From Gemmatimonadaceae bacterium (lineage in GTDB: Bacteria > Gemmatimonadota > Gemmatimonadetes > Gemmatimonadales > Gemmatimonadaceae), in NCBI GenBank assembly GCA_020852815.1, contig JADZAN010000030.1, positions 1 to 64,000 on the forward strand: a DNA stretch of 64,000 nt, read 5' to 3'. A program made the position numbers and the translations under genes. The notes under the pieces were generated by a model that did not search any database, was not told where the DNA came from, and worked only from the letters and a program-made list of their open reading frames with translations. Below are positions 4,104-20,957 of the stretch, piece after piece. Positions within the stretch are counted from its first letter, which is position 1; every line of letters begins with the position of its first letter.

Positions 4104-6167
4104 CTACTTGCGGCACGCATTGGCCGGCTCGTATCGCGCCCACACGGGCTTTCCGTCGGCGGCGGTACGGAAGCCGGCGACCTCGTCGAAGAAGCGGTTG
4201 TAGTCCTCGAGCGCCTGCCAGCGTTCGCCTAACGTCCAGCGCGTGGTGAACTGCTGGTCGAGGCAGGTGCACCACGCGCGCATCGGCCGCGTGGCGCCGC
4301 GTTCCTGCTCGTGCTGCTCGCACTTGCCGGCGAGCGACGGGGGCCACTCGCCGAGGGCGGGGAGTGCGACGCGGGCACGCTCCGCCTGCAGAGTCGGCAG
4401 GCGCAATGCCATGCGACGCATGTTTTCCATGTGTTGCATCACCTGCGGCGACTCGCACCCGCCCTCGAACAGGAGCGCCATGTCCTCGCGCATGGCCACG
4501 GCAAAGCGGGGGAGGATGGCCATCTGGCCCATCGCCGCCCCCGGATTGGTGAGCAGGCGCCCCAGCATGTCGAGCAAGCCATCGACGGAGTTGGCCTCGA
4601 GCCCCCCGGGCGCCATCGGCAGCGCTTGCGGCGTGTTCTTCTCCCACCAGATGTAGGGATCCACGAAGGCGCGCGGGATCCACGTCGTGTCGCCTCCTGC
4701 CGGTTCCCACTCGTTCCCCAGATCGTCGCGCCGGATCGTTTTCGTCACGCGGTACGGGGAGCCAAGGGGGATGAGCCGGCGACAGCGATTGGAGTAGGCG
4801 CGGATGGTGCGCGCATACAGGTTGCCGAATTCCCAGTGTGTCGCCGCGTTAGGCCAGTCGCCATCGAAGATGGCGCGGAACTCCGGCCCGAGTGCATAGC
4901 GGTCCCACGTGGCCGGAGGGAGATAGTGCAGCCCGGCGGCGGCGAGCAGCCGGCGGCGTTCCGCGTCCCGCGTGCGCGCGCGGGCGCGTCGCCCTTCCAG
5001 CTCGGCGGACTCGCGCGCATACATCGCCGCCCGGTACGCGGCGTAGCCCTTCTGCTGGTCGGCAATTCCCTGTTGGACCTTCTGGATGGAAGCGAGCGTG
5101 TTGAGGTCGGTCGCGCTCGTGCCGCGCTCCGTCCCGGCGTTCCACTGGAACGGACCGCCCGCCGCGTTGCGCCGGCCGTCCCAGATCTCCTCGGCGGCCG
5201 GAACCTCGACCTCCTGCCCGGTGAGGAAGTGGCGCTCGTTGTTCCAGGGGAAACGCGAGTCGGGCTGGCGATCCAGCGTCACCCCCTTGGCGTAGTGATA
5301 GATCGTGACGTGCCGATAGCGCTCGCCGCGGTCGCGCAGGAGGGGAACGATGTGCGTGCGGAAGCGTTCCTGCTCGCGGGGCCCATAGCGGGCGACATCG
5401 AAGCCCATCGTCCCCTTCTCGCGCGTGTAGTCGAGCACCGGTTCGTCAGGCGCAATGGGGCGGACGATGGCGAAGTACTGATTGGAGCCGCGCTCCCCGA
5501 GCCGGTAGATGGCGAGGTCGCCAGCCACCTTCTCCAGCGTTGACCCGGGCCAGCCGCGCTCCTGCAGCGTGGCCGCGCCGCCTAACGGCGCCGCCGCCAC
5601 CGCAGATGGAGCTGTACTCCTGACGTAGAGCGGGTGCTGCGAGATGATCGGCACCGCGACCAGGTAGCGCGTCCCCGCCTGGGCCCGCACCGGAAAGACG
5701 CCCTGCGTGAGCGCCTCACGCACCACCTGCGTGGCCGAGCCCACCACTTGGTTTCCGTAGTTAGCTCGGCGCATCTGCAGGGCAACCGCCTGGGAGGAGA
5801 TCGCCGCGAAGCCCGCATCCTCGACGAACAACTCGCCCCCCTGCGTGCCGATGCGGACACTGAGCAGGATGCAGCTGTTGCCAGGGATGTCGACCGGGAG
5901 CTGGATCGGGGTGGCTGGCGATCGGGCCAGCGGCGCCATGCCGTTGTAGAGCATCGGCGTGCGCAGCGGTGCTTCGCGCTCCAGCGCCTGCTGGATGGTG
6001 GGGGCGTTGCAGGGGTGGTCGGGCGACGGCTGCGCGATGGCGGGGAGTGGGAGGAGAGCAGTGGTCGCGCCCAGGGCGATGGCGGCCGACGCGAGGGGGC
6101 GGTGCAGGGAGAGGCGGGGCGTGCGGGAGTGCTTTCGTGCGCGAGAGGGGACGCTGGGTGTCAGCAC
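4104..6167 (-). CDS. Large secreted protein of unknown function
   Basis: A 687-residue protein with a Sec-type signal peptide: a basic N-region (residues ~8-24), a hydrophobic core (AIALGATTALLPLPAIA) and probable cleavage after AIA-Q near residue 45. The mature part begins with a compact domain (residues ~50-200) with strands such as SCILLSVRIGTQGGELFVED, which could be a beta-sandwich. The middle (~330-400) is charged and helical (MYARESAELEGRRARARTRD). The C-terminal part contains several cysteines and aromatic residues. No family recognised. It faces the upstream pair tail to tail with a 20-bp gap. Two 5' ATGs are close together, so the exact start is uncertain. Confidence 0.75.
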   Translation of the reverse strand: MLTPSVPSRARKHSRTPRLSLHRPLASAAIALGATTALLPLPAIAQPSPDHPCNAPTIQQALEREAPLRTPMLYNGMAPLARSPATPIQLPVDIPGNSCILLSVRIGTQGGELFVEDAGFAAISSQAVALQMRRANYGNQVVGSATQVVREALTQGVFPVRAQAGTRYLVAVPIISQHPLYVRSTAPSAVAAAPLGGAATLQERGWPGSTLEKVAGDLAIYRLGERGSNQYFAIVRPIAPDEPVLDYTREKGTMGFDVARYGPREQERFRTHIVPLLRDRGERYRHVTIYHYAKGVTLDRQPDSRFPWNNERHFLTGQEVEVPAAEEIWDGRRNAAGGPFQWNAGTERGTSATDLNTLASIQKVQQGIADQQKGYAAYRAAMYARESAELEGRRARARTRDAERRRLLAAAGLHYLPPATWDRYALGPEFRAIFDGDWPNAATHWEFGNLYARTIRAYSNRCRRLIPLGSPYRVTKTIRRDDLGNEWEPAGGDTTWIPRAFVDPYIWWEKNTPQALPMAPGGLEANSVDGLLDMLGRLLTNPGAAMGQMAILPRFAVAMREDMALLFEGGCESPQVMQHMENMRRMALRLPTLQAERARVALPALGEWPPSLAGKCEQHEQERGATRPMRAWCTCLDQQFTTRWTLGERWQALEDYNRFFDEVAGFRTAADGKPVWARYEPANACRK

Positions 6168-15326: not shown

Positions 15327-16175
15327 CTAACGCACGATGCGGTGCCCCCCCGCATACACGGTTGCGCTGGTATCGCGCACGAGCGCCACCAGCGTCAACC
15401 CCGAAGCCTCCGCCATGCGGATGGCAAGCCCGGTGGGGCGCGAGACGGCTGCCAGGAGCGGCACGCCGCAGGCCGCCGCCTTCTGCACCAGCTCGAAGCT
15501 CGCTCGGCTGGTGACGATAGCGAAGCCGGTGGTCGCGTCGATGGCGCCGCGCGCCAGCGCGCCGAGCACCTTGTCGAGGGCGTTGTGCCGCCCCACGTCC
15601 TCGCGCACCAGCTGCAACGTCCCGTCGGCTTGCGCCCAGGCGGCGCCGTGCACGGTGCGCGTGGCCTGGTTCAGGAGCTGCGCCTCCTGTAGCGCCGCCG
15701 CCGCACGCCAGAGCGCGTCGGGGGCAATGCTGAGCGAGGCGGTCACGGCGACCGCCGGGCGCACCGCGTCGTCGATCGCCTCCACGCCGCACAGCCCGCA
15801 CCCGGTGCGCCCGCTGATGGCGCGCGCGCGGCCCGCCAGCCGCTCCGAGACCGCCACGGGGACGTCGAGCAGAACCTCGACGCCGCGCCGGTGTCGCACC
15901 ACCTCGAGGTGGGAGATCTCCTCGGCGCGGGCAATCCCTTCGCTCACGGTGAAGCCGACGGCGAAGTCCTCCAGGTCGGAGGGAGTGCACATCATCACGA
16001 CGTGCGCTCTCCTGTTGTAGGCCAGGGCGACCGGGACCTCCTCGGCGACCACGGCCTCGCCCGCGGTGGCCCGATCGCCGTCGAGAAAGGTGACCGGAAA
16101 GCGCGTCTGCGGCGCGAGGAAGCCCGAGGCTCGCACCTCCCCCGGATCAGTCACGCCCCTCACCTGCGGCGGCAT
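15327..16175 (-). CDS. fdhD: Formate dehydrogenase maturation sulfurtransferase FdhD
   Basis: 282 residues from the ATG at 16175, or 275 from a GTG at 16154. The GTG has the better ribosome binding site (AGGTGAGG) and overlaps the upstream stop by only 8 bp, so it may be the true start. FdhD signature: EEVPVALAYNRRAHVVMMC, PSDLEDFAVGFTVSEGI and the sulfur-carrying loop GRTGCGLCGVEAI, whose Cys pair transfers sulfur from IscS to the molybdenum cofactor of formate dehydrogenase. Last gene of the formate dehydrogenase operon, which fits its role exactly. Confidence 0.95.
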   Translation of the reverse strand: MPPQVRGVTDPGEVRASGFLAPQTRFPVTFLDGDRATAGEAVVAEEVPVALAYNRRAHVVMMCTPSDLEDFAVGFTVSEGIARAEEISHLEVVRHRRGVEVLLDVPVAVSERLAGRARAISGRTGCGLCGVEAIDDAVRPAVAVTASLSIAPDALWRAAAALQEAQLLNQATRTVHGAAWAQADGTLQLVREDVGRHNALDKVLGALARGAIDATTGFAIVTSRASFELVQKAAACGVPLLAAVSRPTGLAIRMAEASGLTLVALVRDTSATVYAGGHRIVR

Positions 16176-17124
16176 CCTTCGGTTGAACGAACTGCCACCC
16201 GAAGCGCCCCTTCACGCAGAGGTTGCCCAGGGTGATGTCGTTCTCCAGCGGCGAGGTGGCCTTCACGATGACGTTGTCCTGCACGTGCAACGAGAGCGTA
16301 CAGCCCACGCCGCAGTACGGGCAGATGGTATCGGTCGTTTGCTGCACCTCGGGCTTCCACGCGCCGGCGGCGCGCAGCTCGTGCTCCGACGTGGCCATCA
16401 ACGCACCAGTGGGGCAGACGGCGATGCAGTTGCCGCAGTACACGCACGCCGAGCCGGGGAGCGGGACGGCAAACTCGGTGGATATGCGCGCGTCGAAGCC
16501 GCGGCCAGCGACGGCGATGGCGAAGGTGTTCTGGTGATCGGGACCGCACGCCTCCACGCACTTGTAGCAGAGGATGCACTTGGCGTAGTCGCGTACGTAC
16601 AGCTCGTTGTCGACCTTGACCGGTTGCGCGACGGTGGCCGCCGTGCCTGGCGCGGCGACCACATGGTGTCCTGGGATGCTGGCGTCCCGCACACCATCGT
16701 TTGACGGCGGGGCGCTCTCTCCAAAACGCGCGGGCTGTGCGCCGTACTCGTCGATGAGTTCCGCGAGCCCCGGCGCCGTCGACAGGTCGACCGACGAGGC
16801 GAGGAGTTCGAGCACCAGGCGACGTGAATGCCTCACCCGCGCGCTGGCGGTGAGGACCTTCATCCCCCCCTCCACCGCGCGGGAACAGGCGGGAGCGAGG
16901 ACGCGCGCCCCCTCGATCTCCACCACGCAGAGACGGCAGGCGTTGACCGGCTCCAGCGTCTCGAGGTAGCAGAGCGTGGGGATCTCCTTCCCTAACGAGC
17001 GCGCCGCCTGCAGGATCGTCGTCCCCTCCTCCACCGTGCACGACTGTCCGTCGATGGTGAGCGCAACGGGGGGGCGCGCAGGGCGCGACGGGCGCGCGAG
17101 TTGGACCAGCGGGGTAGCAGTCAT
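16147..17124 (-). CDS. Formate dehydrogenase alpha: separate Fe-S module
   Basis: 325 residues. In order: a [2Fe-2S] ferredoxin-like domain (residues ~15-100; Cys in TLCYLETLEPVNACRLCVVE and further on at APACSRAV), a His-Cys region as in NuoG (RHSRRLVLELLAS), two 4Fe-4S motifs (AKCILCYKCVEACGP and SACVYCGNCIAVCPTGAL), then the molybdopterin-oxidoreductase Fe4S4 domain (TICPYCGVGCTL, GNLCVKGRFGW). In FdsA/FdhF-type subunits this would run on into the catalytic domain, but the protein stops ~10 residues after GRFGW. The catalytic part is encoded by the gene at 18996-20957. The ATG overlaps the stop of the flavin-subunit gene (ATGA). Confidence 0.92.
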   Translation of the reverse strand: MTATPLVQLARPSRPARPPVALTIDGQSCTVEEGTTILQAARSLGKEIPTLCYLETLEPVNACRLCVVEIEGARVLAPACSRAVEGGMKVLTASARVRHSRRLVLELLASSVDLSTAPGLAELIDEYGAQPARFGESAPPSNDGVRDASIPGHHVVAAPGTAATVAQPVKVDNELYVRDYAKCILCYKCVEACGPDHQNTFAIAVAGRGFDARISTEFAVPLPGSACVYCGNCIAVCPTGALMATSEHELRAAGAWKPEVQQTTDTICPYCGVGCTLSLHVQDNVIVKATSPLENDITLGNLCVKGRFGWQFVQPKDAAAGEGRD

Positions 17125-18974
17125 CGTCCGACCTCCTCGTACAGCCGCAAGCGCTTGATGGCCGACTCCACGGCGGAGTATGCCGTCTGCCCCAGCCCGC
17201 AGATGGAGGCGTCGCGCATGGCGACGCCGACGTCGTCCAGCAATGCCAGCTCGGCGGCCACGCCGCCTAACGTCTTGCCGGCGGCAATGCGGTGCAGCGC
17301 CTCTTCCTGCCGCACCGTCCCCACGCGGCAGGGGACGCACTGCCCGCACGACTCGTCGCGGAAGAAGCCGGCAATGCGGCGCACCATGTCGTGCAGGTCG
17401 TCGCCCGGGCCACAGACCATGACGACGCCGGAGCCTAACGTGGTGCCGGCAGCGCGCGCGTCCTCGAGCGTGAGCGGGAGGTCGATCTCGTCGCCGCGCA
17501 CGAAGGTCCCGGCGGCGCCGCCCAGCAGGATGGCCGTCGGCTCGGTGGCCCCGGCCATCGCCAGGAGGTCGCGCAGCATCGTCCCGAAGGGGACTTCATA
17601 GACGCCGGGGCGCGACACTGCCCCGCTGAGGCAGAAGAGGCGCGTCCCCGTGGAGCCCTGCGACCCGGTGGCCGCGTACGCCGCGCCACCGAGCCGCACG
17701 ATGGGGAGAACGTTGGCGAGCGTCTCCACATTGTTCACGACCGTTGGCTTGCCAAAGAGCCCCACGTGCACGGGGAACGGCGGCTTGCTGCGCGGCTCGC
17801 CGCGCTTACCCTCGATCGACTCGAAGAGGGCGGTCTCCTCGCCGCAGATGTAGGCGCCGGCGCCGCGGCGAATCTCGATGCGGAAGTCGCCTAACAACTG
17901 CGCCGCCGTGCACGCGTCGATGGCGTTCTGCACGCGCACGGCGGCAAGCGGATACTCGGCGCGCACGTACAGGAAGCCCACGTTGCACCCGGTGGCGAAG
18001 CCGGCAATCGTCATCGCCTCCACAATCGCGAACGGATCCTGCGTGAGGAGCACACGATCCTTGAACGTGCCAGGCTCCGACTCGTCGGCGTTGCAGACCA
18101 GGTAGTGCGGCGTCTCCGGGCGGGCGCGCACGGCCTCCCACTTGCGTCCGGTGGGAAAGGCGGCGCCGCCGCGCCCCACCAGACGGGCGTCGTTGAGCTG
18201 GGCAATCACCCACTCCGCCCCCTTCGCGCGCGCCCTGGCCAACGCCTCGAAGCCACCGGCGGTGCGATACGCATCGAGTGACGTCGGGTCCACCGTTCCG
18301 CAGCGCGCGAGCAGGACGAGCGCGGGATCGCCACGCTGCGGGAGCACCGCGGTGCCTGACGAGTCGAGCCCCGGATCGTGCCGCGTGAGGGCGTGTACCG
18401 CCGACGACGGCGTGACGTTGCCCAGGAGGACTTCGCGCGGCGACTCCCCCGCCTCGGTGTAGAGCGCGGCCGGGGCGTGGTCACACATCCCGAGGCAGGG
18501 GGAGTGCATCCACGCCACGTCGCCCTCGCCTAACGCCACACGCTCGCCGCGCGGCTCGGCGGCAATCGCGGCGCCACAGGTACGCTCGAGCTCGTGTTCG
18601 ATGGCGTGCGCGCCGCGGTTGCGGCAGGCGATGTCGTCGCACACGTGGAGGACGCGCTTCGCTCGCGGCGCGGTAGCCAGCAGCGCATAGAACGTTGCCA
18701 CCCCCCAGGCTTCGGCTGGCGGGACGGAGAGGCGGCGACAGACGTAGCCCATCCCTCCTTCGCTGATCCAACCGATGCGTTGCTGCAGCGCCTGCAGCGC
18801 GGGGACGAGGAGGTGGCGCTGCTCGCGCGCGGCGGCGCCACCAACGGCGGTGTGCGCATCGCGCTCCGAGCCGCGTTCTCCTCCATCCCACGACGACGCG
18901 GGGGGGCCGAGGAGCGCGTCGATCGCGTCTCGTTCGGCGGCCGTCGGTTCCGCGTCGATATGGCGAATGTCCAT
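17121..18974 (-). CDS. NAD-linked formate dehydrogenase beta (NuoE-NuoF fusion)
   Basis: 617 residues fusing two modules. Residues ~30-200 are a NuoE-like thioredoxin-fold [2Fe-2S] domain (HVCDDIACRNRGAHAIE ... HSPCLGMCDHAPAAL). The rest is NuoF-like: FMN/NADH site GRGGAAFPTGRKWEAV, CNADESEPGTFKDR, GAGAYICGEETAL, and the 4Fe-4S motif ESCGQCVPCRVGT. This is the diaphorase subunit of soluble NAD+-dependent formate dehydrogenases and takes electrons from the Fe-S chain to reduce NAD+. It sits between the catalytic gene (22-bp gap) and the Fe-S module gene (4-nt overlap), so the three proteins probably form one complex. Confidence 0.92.
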   Translation of the reverse strand: MDIRHIDAEPTAAERDAIDALLGPPASSWDGGERGSERDAHTAVGGAAAREQRHLLVPALQALQQRIGWISEGGMGYVCRRLSVPPAEAWGVATFYALLATAPRAKRVLHVCDDIACRNRGAHAIEHELERTCGAAIAAEPRGERVALGEGDVAWMHSPCLGMCDHAPAALYTEAGESPREVLLGNVTPSSAVHALTRHDPGLDSSGTAVLPQRGDPALVLLARCGTVDPTSLDAYRTAGGFEALARARAKGAEWVIAQLNDARLVGRGGAAFPTGRKWEAVRARPETPHYLVCNADESEPGTFKDRVLLTQDPFAIVEAMTIAGFATGCNVGFLYVRAEYPLAAVRVQNAIDACTAAQLLGDFRIEIRRGAGAYICGEETALFESIEGKRGEPRSKPPFPVHVGLFGKPTVVNNVETLANVLPIVRLGGAAYAATGSQGSTGTRLFCLSGAVSRPGVYEVPFGTMLRDLLAMAGATEPTAILLGGAAGTFVRGDEIDLPLTLEDARAAGTTLGSGVVMVCGPGDDLHDMVRRIAGFFRDESCGQCVPCRVGTVRQEEALHRIAAGKTLGGVAAELALLDDVGVAMRDASICGLGQTAYSAVESAIKRLRLYEEVGR

Positions 18975-18995
18975 TACTTGGTCGGTCTCGTCAGG

Positions 18996-20957
18996 TCAGG
19001 TCGTGGAGGTCGCGAGCGGCGCGTCGTGCAACGCCGCGGCAGCGACCTTCTCGACGCGTACGGCGCACGCCTTGAACTCCGCCGTCCCCGACCGCGGGTC
19101 GGAGGCGTCGATAGTGAGGGCGTTGGTGAGCACGTCGTCGGGAAAGTGGAACGTCATGAAGACCAGGTGTTCGCGCAGCCCTTCATCGATACGCGCCGGC
19201 GCCACCACGCTCCCGCGCCGCGACGTCACGCGCACCATGTCGCCGGTGGCGATCCCGAGGAGAGCGGCATCTTCCGGGGAGAGGTCGAGCGTCTCGCCGG
19301 TGTGCAGCGGCGAGTCGTAGGCCGTGGTCTGCACGCCGGTGTTGTACGATTCCAGACGCCGCCCAGTCGTCAGGAGCAACGGATAGTCGGCGTCGCGCTC
19401 TTCGAACGGCGGGGAGTGGTGCACCACGCTGAACGGGGCCGCGCGCCCCACGCGCGGGACCTGCCACAGGCGCCCATGCAGGAAGGTCGCTCCCGGATCC
19501 GATTCGTCCACGCACGGCCAGCGGATCCCACCTAACGACTCGAGGCGCTCGTACGTCATCCCGCCCACGAAGGCCGGGGCGAGCCGCCGGACCTCGTCCC
19601 ACACTTCATTCGCCGTCGGCGTCGCCCAGTCGTGCCCCATGCGGCGCGCCAGCTCGGAGAGGATCCACAGCTCGTCGCGCGCCCCCTCGGGCGCCTGAGC
19701 CGCCTTGCGCACGCGTTGCACCCGGCGCTCGGAGTTGGTCACCGTCCCCTCTCCCTCGCACCAGGTGGCGGCCGCCGGGAGGACCACGTCGGCCAACTGC
19801 GCCGTGCGGGTGAGGACAATCTCCTGCACCACGAGGTGATCGAGCGAGCGCAGTGCCTGCTCCACGTGATTGGCGTCGGCGTCGGACTGCATCGGGTTCT
19901 CCCCAATGCAGAGCAGCGCCTTCATTTCACCCGCGGCCATCGCGTGCAGCATCTGCGTGAGGTTCTTCCCGTAGCGCGGGGTGATCTTCGTCCCCCACGC
20001 CGCCTCGAAGCGCGCGCGCGCCTCGTGGTCCTGCTCGATGTCCTGGAAGCCGGCGAGCTTGTTGGGAATCGCCCCCATGTCGCCCCCGCCCTGCACGTTG
20101 TTCTGTCCGCGCAGCGGGTTGCAGCCGGAGCCCCACCGCCCCATGTGCCCCGTGAGGAGGGCGAGGTTGATGAGGGCAAGGACGTTGTCGACCGCGTTGT
20201 GGTGCTCCGTGATGCCAAGCGTCCAGCAGATCATCGCGCGTTCCGCCCTGGCAAAGGCGTGCGCCGCCTCGCGAATCACGTCGCCGGGGATGCCGGTGAT
20301 GGGCTCCGCGTATTCCAGCGTGTACTGCTCCACTGCCGCCTTGTAGGCCTCGAAGCCTTCCGTGGCGTTGGCAATGAAGGCTTCATGGTGCAGCCCCGCA
20401 TGGATGATTTCGCGCGCCATCGCATTGGCGAGCGCGATATCGCTCCCCACGCGCAGCCCGCACCAGACGTCGGCCCACTGTGCGCTGGCCGTACGCCGAG
20501 GATCCATGACATAGAGGCGCGTGCCGTGATGGCGAATGCCCTTGAGGAGATGATGGAACCAGATCGGGTGCGCCGCACGGGCGTTCGATCCCCAGAGGAG
20601 CACCACATCGGCGTCCTCCACCTCACGGTAGGAATTCGTCCCCCCACCCGCCCCGAACACCGTCGCCAGACCGACGACGCTGGGGGCGTGTCAAGTCCGA
20701 TTGCAGCTGTCGACGTTGTTGGTGCCGAAGACGGCGCGCGTGAGCTTGGCGGCGAGGAAGTTCACCTCGTTCGTGCTCTTGGAGCAGGAAAAGGTCCCGA
20801 TCGCGTCGGGGCCGCGCGTGTCACGAACGCGAAGGAAGCCGGCGGCGGCTCGGTCCAGCGCCTCGTCCCACGAGGCGGGGCGCAACTCGCCCTGGTCGCG
20901 GACGAGCGGTTCCGTGAGCCGTGCATAGGGGCGCGGGGCGTAGCGACGACGGGTCAT
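18996..20957 (-). CDS. Formate dehydrogenase catalytic subunit, selenocysteine-containing
   Basis: 653 codons including an in-frame TGA at 20691-20693 (codon 89) that I read as selenocysteine. The residues around it are DSCNRT-U-HAPSVVGLATVF, matching the active-site U/C-H-A/G-P-S motif of formate dehydrogenases. The frame stays open on both sides, and both halves show family sequence: before it, PASWDEALDRAAAGFLRVR; after it, VVLLWGSNARAAHPIWF, YVMDPRRTASAQWADVW, GRWGSGCNPLRGQNNVQGGG and LFMTFHF-type C-terminal molybdopterin-binding sequence. A naive reading would give an 88-residue fragment and a separate 554-residue gene. ATG at 20957 is preceded by GGAGA. It lacks the usual N-terminal Fe4S4 domain, which is encoded at 16147-17124. 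Confidence 0.9.
20649..20693 (-). promoter_or_regulatory. SECIS-like hairpin at the UGA codon
   Basis: Directly after the TGA (minus strand) an imperfect hairpin can form. The lower stem is CGCCCC with GGGGCG. The upper stem is CGTCGTC with GGCGACG (7 bp, one G-U pair). The apical loop is GGTCT. From my memory of E. coli fdhF, the GGUCU sequence begins 18 nt after the UGA; here it also begins 18 nt after the UGA. This is the SelB-binding type of bacterial SECIS. Folding was done by eye. Confidence 0.85.

Follow-up and report, generated by a model that had tools for sequence, protein, structure and literature searches.

The window analysed here, a 64,000-nucleotide stretch of contig JADZAN010000030.1 from a Gemmatimonadaceae bacterium, carries a formate dehydrogenase (FDH) in which the catalytic domains lie on one protein and the iron-sulfur domain that adjoins the metal site lies on another. 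Four genes are found on the minus strand, in order of transcription a catalytic chain (CAT), a fusion of NuoE with NuoF, an iron-sulfur chain (NTER), and FdhD. The split layout is confirmed as real, conserved, and functional-looking. The operon very probably encodes a cytosolic, NAD-linked formate dehydrogenase with selenocysteine (Sec) and either molybdenum or tungsten (Mo/W), built from three chains, with FdhD as its maturation factor, and passing its electrons from NTER to NuoEF.

CAT (18996..20957) starts at the ATG at 20957, with the N-terminal sequence MTRRRYAPRPYARLTEPLVRDQ, and runs for 653 residues when an in-frame UGA at codon 89 is read as selenocysteine. Its Pfam domains, Molybdopterin and Molydop_binding, are of the kind that binds a bis-molybdopterin guanine dinucleotide (bis-MGD) Mo/W centre, while no iron-sulfur domain is detected by Pfam, by TIGR01591, or by alignment to FdsA. 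The expected active-site residues are in place (Sec89, His90, and Arg283), with C/U-H and R-G-Q both present; UH...RGQ is given as the motif of class I formate dehydrogenases in the accessible part of PMC8808070. By Pfam and alignment, CAT differs from FDH-H and from the FdhF of the hydrogen-dependent carbon dioxide reductase in lacking the Fe4S4 domain, and the locus differs from the NAD-dependent FdsABG type in that its iron-sulfur and catalytic domains are not joined in one alpha chain. The domain is found instead on NTER (16147..17124; 325 amino acids), which has ligand sets for one [2Fe-2S] and three [4Fe-4S] clusters and matches Fer2_4 (residues 19-93), 4Fe-4S dicluster (182-241), and Molybdop_Fe4S4 (262-314). 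This last domain (16183..16341), with Cys268, Cys271, Cys275, Cys303, and Lys305, would ligate the cluster adjoining the metal site of CAT. A first-pass annotation of this DNA had described a separate 325-residue protein with ferredoxin, 4Fe-4S, and Fe4S4-Mop domains, and its coordinates, sizes, and order stand as written. So does its point that another polypeptide supplies the Fe4S4 domain beside the Mo site.

The two pieces are encoded in reversed order, as had been noticed, and the NuoEF-like gene said to lie between them is a fusion of 617 amino acids (17121..18974) resembling FdsG joined to FdsB. Profile matches find both parts of a diaphorase, NuoE-like and NuoF-like, in this single chain, with [2Fe-2S], flavin mononucleotide (FMN)/NAD, and [4Fe-4S] domains (Pfam 2Fe-2S_thioredx, Complex1_51K, SLBB, and NADH_4Fe-4S). 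The FdhD sulfurtransferase (15327..16175; 282 amino acids; Pfam FdhD-NarQ) comes last. The NTER start and the NuoEF stop share the sequence ATGA, and the last 29 bases of NTER also belong to FdhD, which gives the four genes the look of a single operon.

The two chains meet precisely. Positions 1-52 of TIGR01591 (Fdh-alpha) are matched by NTER and positions 52-672 by CAT; against FdsA of Rhodobacter capsulatus (6tg9_A), NTER covers residues 17-307 and CAT residues 307-932, so that the pieces tile at residue 307. Together they amount to one FdsA chain, with neither gap nor doubling at the joint, but NTER lacks the His-Cys3 ligands. The TIGR01591 equivalog score of CAT is 649.8 bits, below the curated cut-off of 666.25; positions 1-52 of the profile lie on the other chain. 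The claim that CAT begins where NTER would continue is thus borne out in both comparisons. The companion claim, that NTER ends just after GRFGW, is off in the exact end, which comes 15 residues farther on.

The genome shows no full-length alpha subunit to pair with the beta subunit, a find that the first-pass annotation had named as one that would refute it: no full-length FdhA exceeds the TIGR01591 cut-off, and apart from this locus the Fdh-alpha profile has only weaker hits. Three other proteins with a Molybdop_Fe4S4 domain are present, namely NuoG (only 523 amino acids long, in the complex I operon, L054 4260-5828), a 1019-residue chain resembling QrcB/ActB, and a 697-residue oxidoreductase of the dimethyl sulfoxide reductase family. 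This leaves NTER as the only evident source of the Fe4S4 domain for CAT.

Under the standard code the CAT frame is broken by the UGA at 20691..20693 (minus strand), a codon on which the first-pass annotation was silent, and the frame is open only if UGA stands for a residue. The codon falls within NRT-U-HAPSVVGL, at the position of the Mo/W ligand, where formate dehydrogenases have Sec or Cys. Among 77 split-type or unassigned loci, less four without an NRT-x-HAP stretch (L103, L139, L157, and L176), UGA occupies this position in 63 and Cys in 10, all ten from Actinomycetota genomes. Downstream lies a hairpin resembling a bacterial selenocysteine insertion sequence (20662..20678, minus strand), with a 6-bp stem and a GGUCU loop, 15 nucleotides from the U of UGA. 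A hairpin with all six pairs and GGUCU at this fixed distance is found in 62/63 UGA loci. None of the 10 Cys loci keeps six pairs (none has more than four), and one keeps GGUCU. Rfam, searched over the whole window with its gathering thresholds, gave no match, the hairpin included, and the stretch after UGA, folded as a single sequence, does not stand out (z -1.58); it is therefore conservation that speaks for the hairpin. The genome also holds SelA (532 bits), SelB (304 bits), and a tRNA-Sec with anticodon UCA. Judged from these decoding signals, the UGA at codon 89 is selenocysteine.

The ligands of NTER are also conserved. In the nomenclature of the R. capsulatus enzyme (RcFDH), all 16 cluster cysteines of A1, A2, A3, and A5, together with Lys305 of the motif C-x-K-G, are invariant in 68/68 split loci. 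The lysine of C-x-K-G lies between pterin and cluster in FDH-H. Cluster A4 is a different matter: its His-Cys3 motif is absent from 68/68 split chains. The strict motif occurs in 19/41 fused chains, and six more, read by eye, have a shorter His-Cys spacing, so the loss of A4 is not peculiar to the split. According to what is available of PMC7171172, the direct chain in RcFDH runs Mo, A1, A2, A3, A5, B6, FMN, and A4 (His117, Cys121, Cys124, and Cys130) lies off this path at the dimer interface, where it may link protomers. As read from the ligand motifs, what is peculiar to the split clade is a CAT devoid of any cluster ligand domain and the placement on NTER of every direct-chain cluster that comes before NuoF.

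The first-pass annotation considered the split unusual. It is not. A match to CAT at E <= 1e-80 occurs in 252/395 genomes of the phylum, and at an identity of at least 64% in 43 of the 395 (this one included), after which identity drops to 46%. Of those 43, 40 were opened, and CAT, NuoEF, and NTER stand in order in 37, the other three being cut by contig ends. A collection of named genomes provided 80 loci, 30 of them in split order, five cut by contig ends, and the rest of other kinds. The 30 span Gemmatimonadota, Actinomycetota (Streptomyces, Amycolatopsis, Nonomuraea, Nocardiopsis, and Acidimicrobiia), Acidobacteriota, Planctomycetota, Armatimonadota, Sulfobacillus, and a deltaproteobacterial metagenome-assembled genome (MAG). 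Within Actinomycetota, CAT is matched at E <= 1e-190 in 44/396 genomes; ten were opened, of which six have the split order and four a short FdhF, and an additional locus (L123 in genome G401) is split. A plasmid search found relatives only under 60% identity. Altogether the order CAT-NuoEF-NTER is found in 68/68 loci with room for it, the window included (65 distinct contigs, since L106/L079, L107/L092, and L108/L099 are the same contigs counted twice), and chance is excluded as its explanation. Two loci, L112 and L116, are absent from one of the alignments, because the range matched in them extended beyond the NTER stop. In 41/68, FdhD comes after NTER, no more than 1.5 kb away and on the same strand. 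In L118, FdhD (5249-5920) lies upstream of CAT, unlike every other split locus in which it was located, where it lies downstream. The first-pass annotation had itself named many homologues with this split as grounds for refutation, and genomes do hold them; subunits of fitting sizes have also been published at least once, with detection of the proteins. The split is in fact an overlooked common variant, a widespread and partly published subfamily rather than an oddity.

Other arrangements exist. Among 136 classified places (L199, having no catalytic chain, is outside this count), 68 show the split of the window locus, 41 a single full chain, and 11 a short chain that carries an Fe4S4 domain itself, while seven (L187-L190, L198, L141, and L156) are split one domain earlier, the Fe4S4 domain staying with the catalytic chain; nine could not be placed, eight of them cut by contig ends and the other being L176. 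In L187, L188, L189, L190, and L198, all from the same phylum, the ferredoxin part is a separate chain and the order is collinear. A cut before the Fe4S4 domain thus also occurs, but the cut behind it marks one clade. The Sulfobacillus MAG G404 contains a second split-type Sec CAT (L210, 4377-6266, reverse strand) with no NuoEF or NTER beside it, and only one NTER was found in that genome. The second CAT would need an Fe4S4 cluster from the other locus, unless the MAG is incomplete.

How might such an enzyme work? Formate would be oxidised at the bis-MGD metal site of CAT, formed with Sec89, His90, and Arg283, where the metal may be Mo or W. Electrons would then cross the subunit interface to the Fe4S4 cluster of NTER (the equivalent of A1 in RcFDH), continue through the two further [4Fe-4S] clusters of NTER (A2 and A3) and its [2Fe-2S] cluster (A5), and pass by way of the NuoF cluster and FMN to NAD+, which would be reduced. 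The scheme supposes that the three chains assemble into one complex, that the Fe4S4 domain docks in its usual place, and that the reaction runs in this direction. Modelled alone by AlphaFold (mean predicted local distance difference test, pLDDT, 83.5), CAT matches the folds of MeFDH1 (template-modelling score, normalised by query, 0.89; first-ranked), FDH-H (0.91), and RcFDH (0.89), so that its pocket domains are predicted to fold as usual with no Fe4S4 domain in the chain. Some observations do weigh against the scheme. The AlphaFold model of NTER is poor (pLDDT 54), too poor for a structure search. The A4 cluster of RcFDH is missing in all 68, and the quaternary structure may therefore differ. 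Finally, in the published enzyme of matching chain sizes, FDH3 of Actinomycetospora chiangmaiensis DSM 45062 (discussed below), dependence on selenium is shared with the membrane-bound FDH1 and, so far as PMC7176365 is available, does not prove that FDH3 is active.

One might suppose that NTER and NuoEF serve a different enzyme, a hydrogenase or a complex I-like diaphorase, leaving CAT to work alone or with unknown ferredoxins. Both proteins are indeed homologous to hydrogenase and complex I modules, and the unaccompanied second CAT of the Sulfobacillus MAG fits such an arrangement. However, NTER has a Molybdop_Fe4S4 domain with intact ligands, and the three genes occur together in all 68 loci over several phyla, which makes it quite improbable that they belong to separate enzymes. 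More radical doubts fare worse. The standard-code frame does end at UGA, but that this is a true stop and the catalytic gene broken is scarcely believable when 63 loci have UGA at the same codon where ten have Cys, when the hairpin is conserved only alongside UGA, and when the genome encodes SelA, SelB, and tRNA-Sec. Nor is an assembly artefact to be taken seriously, despite the draft state of the genome (47 contigs), since the same order recurs on 65 distinct contigs from many assemblies. The three-chain formate dehydrogenase with its wire on NTER is the reading that we carry forward.

Two trees bear on how the split arose. In a CAT tree of 62 rows, 20 of them split (18 of the 68 plus L204 and L209), the split chains form one clade (support 100/99; 100% of 200 bootstrap trees). 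Moving outward, they are joined by the short FdhF of Mesobacillus and Actinomycetota (100/97), then by that of Bacillaceae (100/100), and only then by fused chains. In a tree of NTER without its Fe4S4 domain (77 rows, 29 of the 68 split loci), these 29 likewise group as a single clade (SH-aLRT 100). Since each half forms a single clade, both evidently had a single origin and have travelled jointly between phyla. The nearest kin of CAT are short FdhF proteins with their own Fe4S4 domain and without the ferredoxin part (L132, L138, L140, L200-L203, and L211). In L200-L203 (Actinomycetota) and L132 (Mesobacillus), the short FdhF lies directly behind fdhD; the NRT-x-HAP pattern found no match at the metal ligand of L200-L203. 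The Fe4S4 domain is harder to place. When sequences are ordered by mean identity to the domain in split chains, the short FdhF sisters come in at places 19, 28, 29, 40, 54, and 58 of 58, with fused chains first. This hints at a foreign origin, which is not claimed: in an approximately unbiased (AU) test on 54 Fe4S4 columns, grouping with the Bacillaceae sisters was not rejected (p-AU 0.81). A further AU test, this one on CAT, gave no guidance (p 0.61).

Two histories are compatible with the same mechanism. Perhaps a chain of the short FdhF type lost the Fe4S4 domain it once had and came to rely for its proximal cluster, now supplied in trans, on an iron-sulfur subunit of the FdsA/NuoG type belonging to a NuoEF module, with no cut of an FdsA alpha chain; this is our tentative choice. 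Or perhaps the cut fell behind the Fe4S4 domain of a single FdsA-type alpha chain, and the catalytic half of that chain moved ahead of NuoEF, also a possible history, though we lean against it. Fission is suggested by the collinearity of NTER with the N-terminal 290 residues of FdsA, Fe4S4 domain included, and by the order NuoEF-NTER-FdhD, which, with CAT set apart, is that of the fdsGBAC operon. The Fe4S4-only tree counts for fission as well, insofar as it allows the split domain to group with the Bacillaceae sisters of CAT. On the other hand, two successive lineages of short FdhF adjoin the split clade in the CAT tree. Assembly requires one event, but fission requires that the ferredoxin part also be lost separately in two short lineages, so the tree favours assembly by steps, and assembly is rated slightly above fission. 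The phrase "split and shuffled" in the first-pass annotation is likewise doubtful as history, the closest relatives of CAT being short FdhF and not FdsA chains.

If assembly is the true history, several phyla would share a group of enzymes in which the catalytic polypeptide is without iron-sulfur ligands and electrons must pass between proteins at their very first hop. The wire module could then, in principle, supply several catalytic chains. Interest in Mo/W formate dehydrogenases comes from the reduction of CO2, and with metal chain and iron-sulfur wire separate, each could be expressed, loaded, and swapped independently. The natural split also bears on whether the proximal cluster must be in the chain of the active site. 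And the missing A4 makes the electron exchange between protomers proposed for RcFDH (in the accessible part of PMC7171172) testable by comparison.

The literature, so far as it was available, has come close to this enzyme without remarking on its division. In open-licence work on formate dehydrogenases, reviews and classifications included, no remark was found, in the portions available, on an Fe4S4 domain carried by a separate chain. The accessible text of a paper on methylotrophy in Gemmatimonadetes (PMC5103831) mentions formate dehydrogenase once and its subunits not at all. As far as searches show, then, a CAT free of iron-sulfur domains, Sec with a clade-wide hairpin, the missing A4, and the tree of kinship with short FdhF are new.

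The nearest published counterpart is FDH3 of A. chiangmaiensis, described in the available part of PMC7176365 as cytoplasmic and Sec-containing, with FdhA3, FdhB3, and FdhC3 of 640, 614, and 316 residues. The three sizes match the split type, a likeness of chain lengths, and that part of the paper does not say where the Fe4S4 domain lies. All three proteins were seen in the proteome, raised two- to threefold on 2-hydroxyisobutyrate; removal of formate needed selenite and was credited to both FDH1 and FDH3 (PMC7176365, same part). A congeneric Actinomycetospora locus (L125) falls in the split clade and shows its gene order, the chains measuring about 642, 637, and 310 residues. Sulfobacillus genomes were reported to have a cytoplasmic Sec FDH adjoining NuoEFG homologues (PMC4378227, in the part available, which does not comment that the catalytic chain lacks an Fe4S4 domain), and the locus of Sulfobacillus MAG AMDSBA1 (L133) is a basal member of the split clade.

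The remaining comparisons separate the split type from its relatives. The short FdhF of Bacillaceae and Actinomycetota keeps the Fe4S4 domain on the catalytic chain and has no split-type NuoEF or NTER beside it in the stretches examined. MeFDH1 of Methylorubrum extorquens (7VW6, 8J83) has a beta chain of 572 residues that the NuoEF fusion matches, but its alpha chain of 989-995 residues holds both halves in one piece, where the window locus is split. With R. capsulatus FdsABG (6TG9/6TGA; PMC7171172, in its accessible part), the locus shares the catalytic domain, the NuoE- and NuoF-like parts, and, judged by conserved domains and ligands, clusters A1, A2, A3, A5, and B6. It differs in the fusion of NuoE with NuoF, in having Sec where R. 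capsulatus has Cys, and in the absence of the A4 ligands. R. capsulatus also carries A1-A5 and the Mo site on one chain, whereas the window locus spreads them over two.

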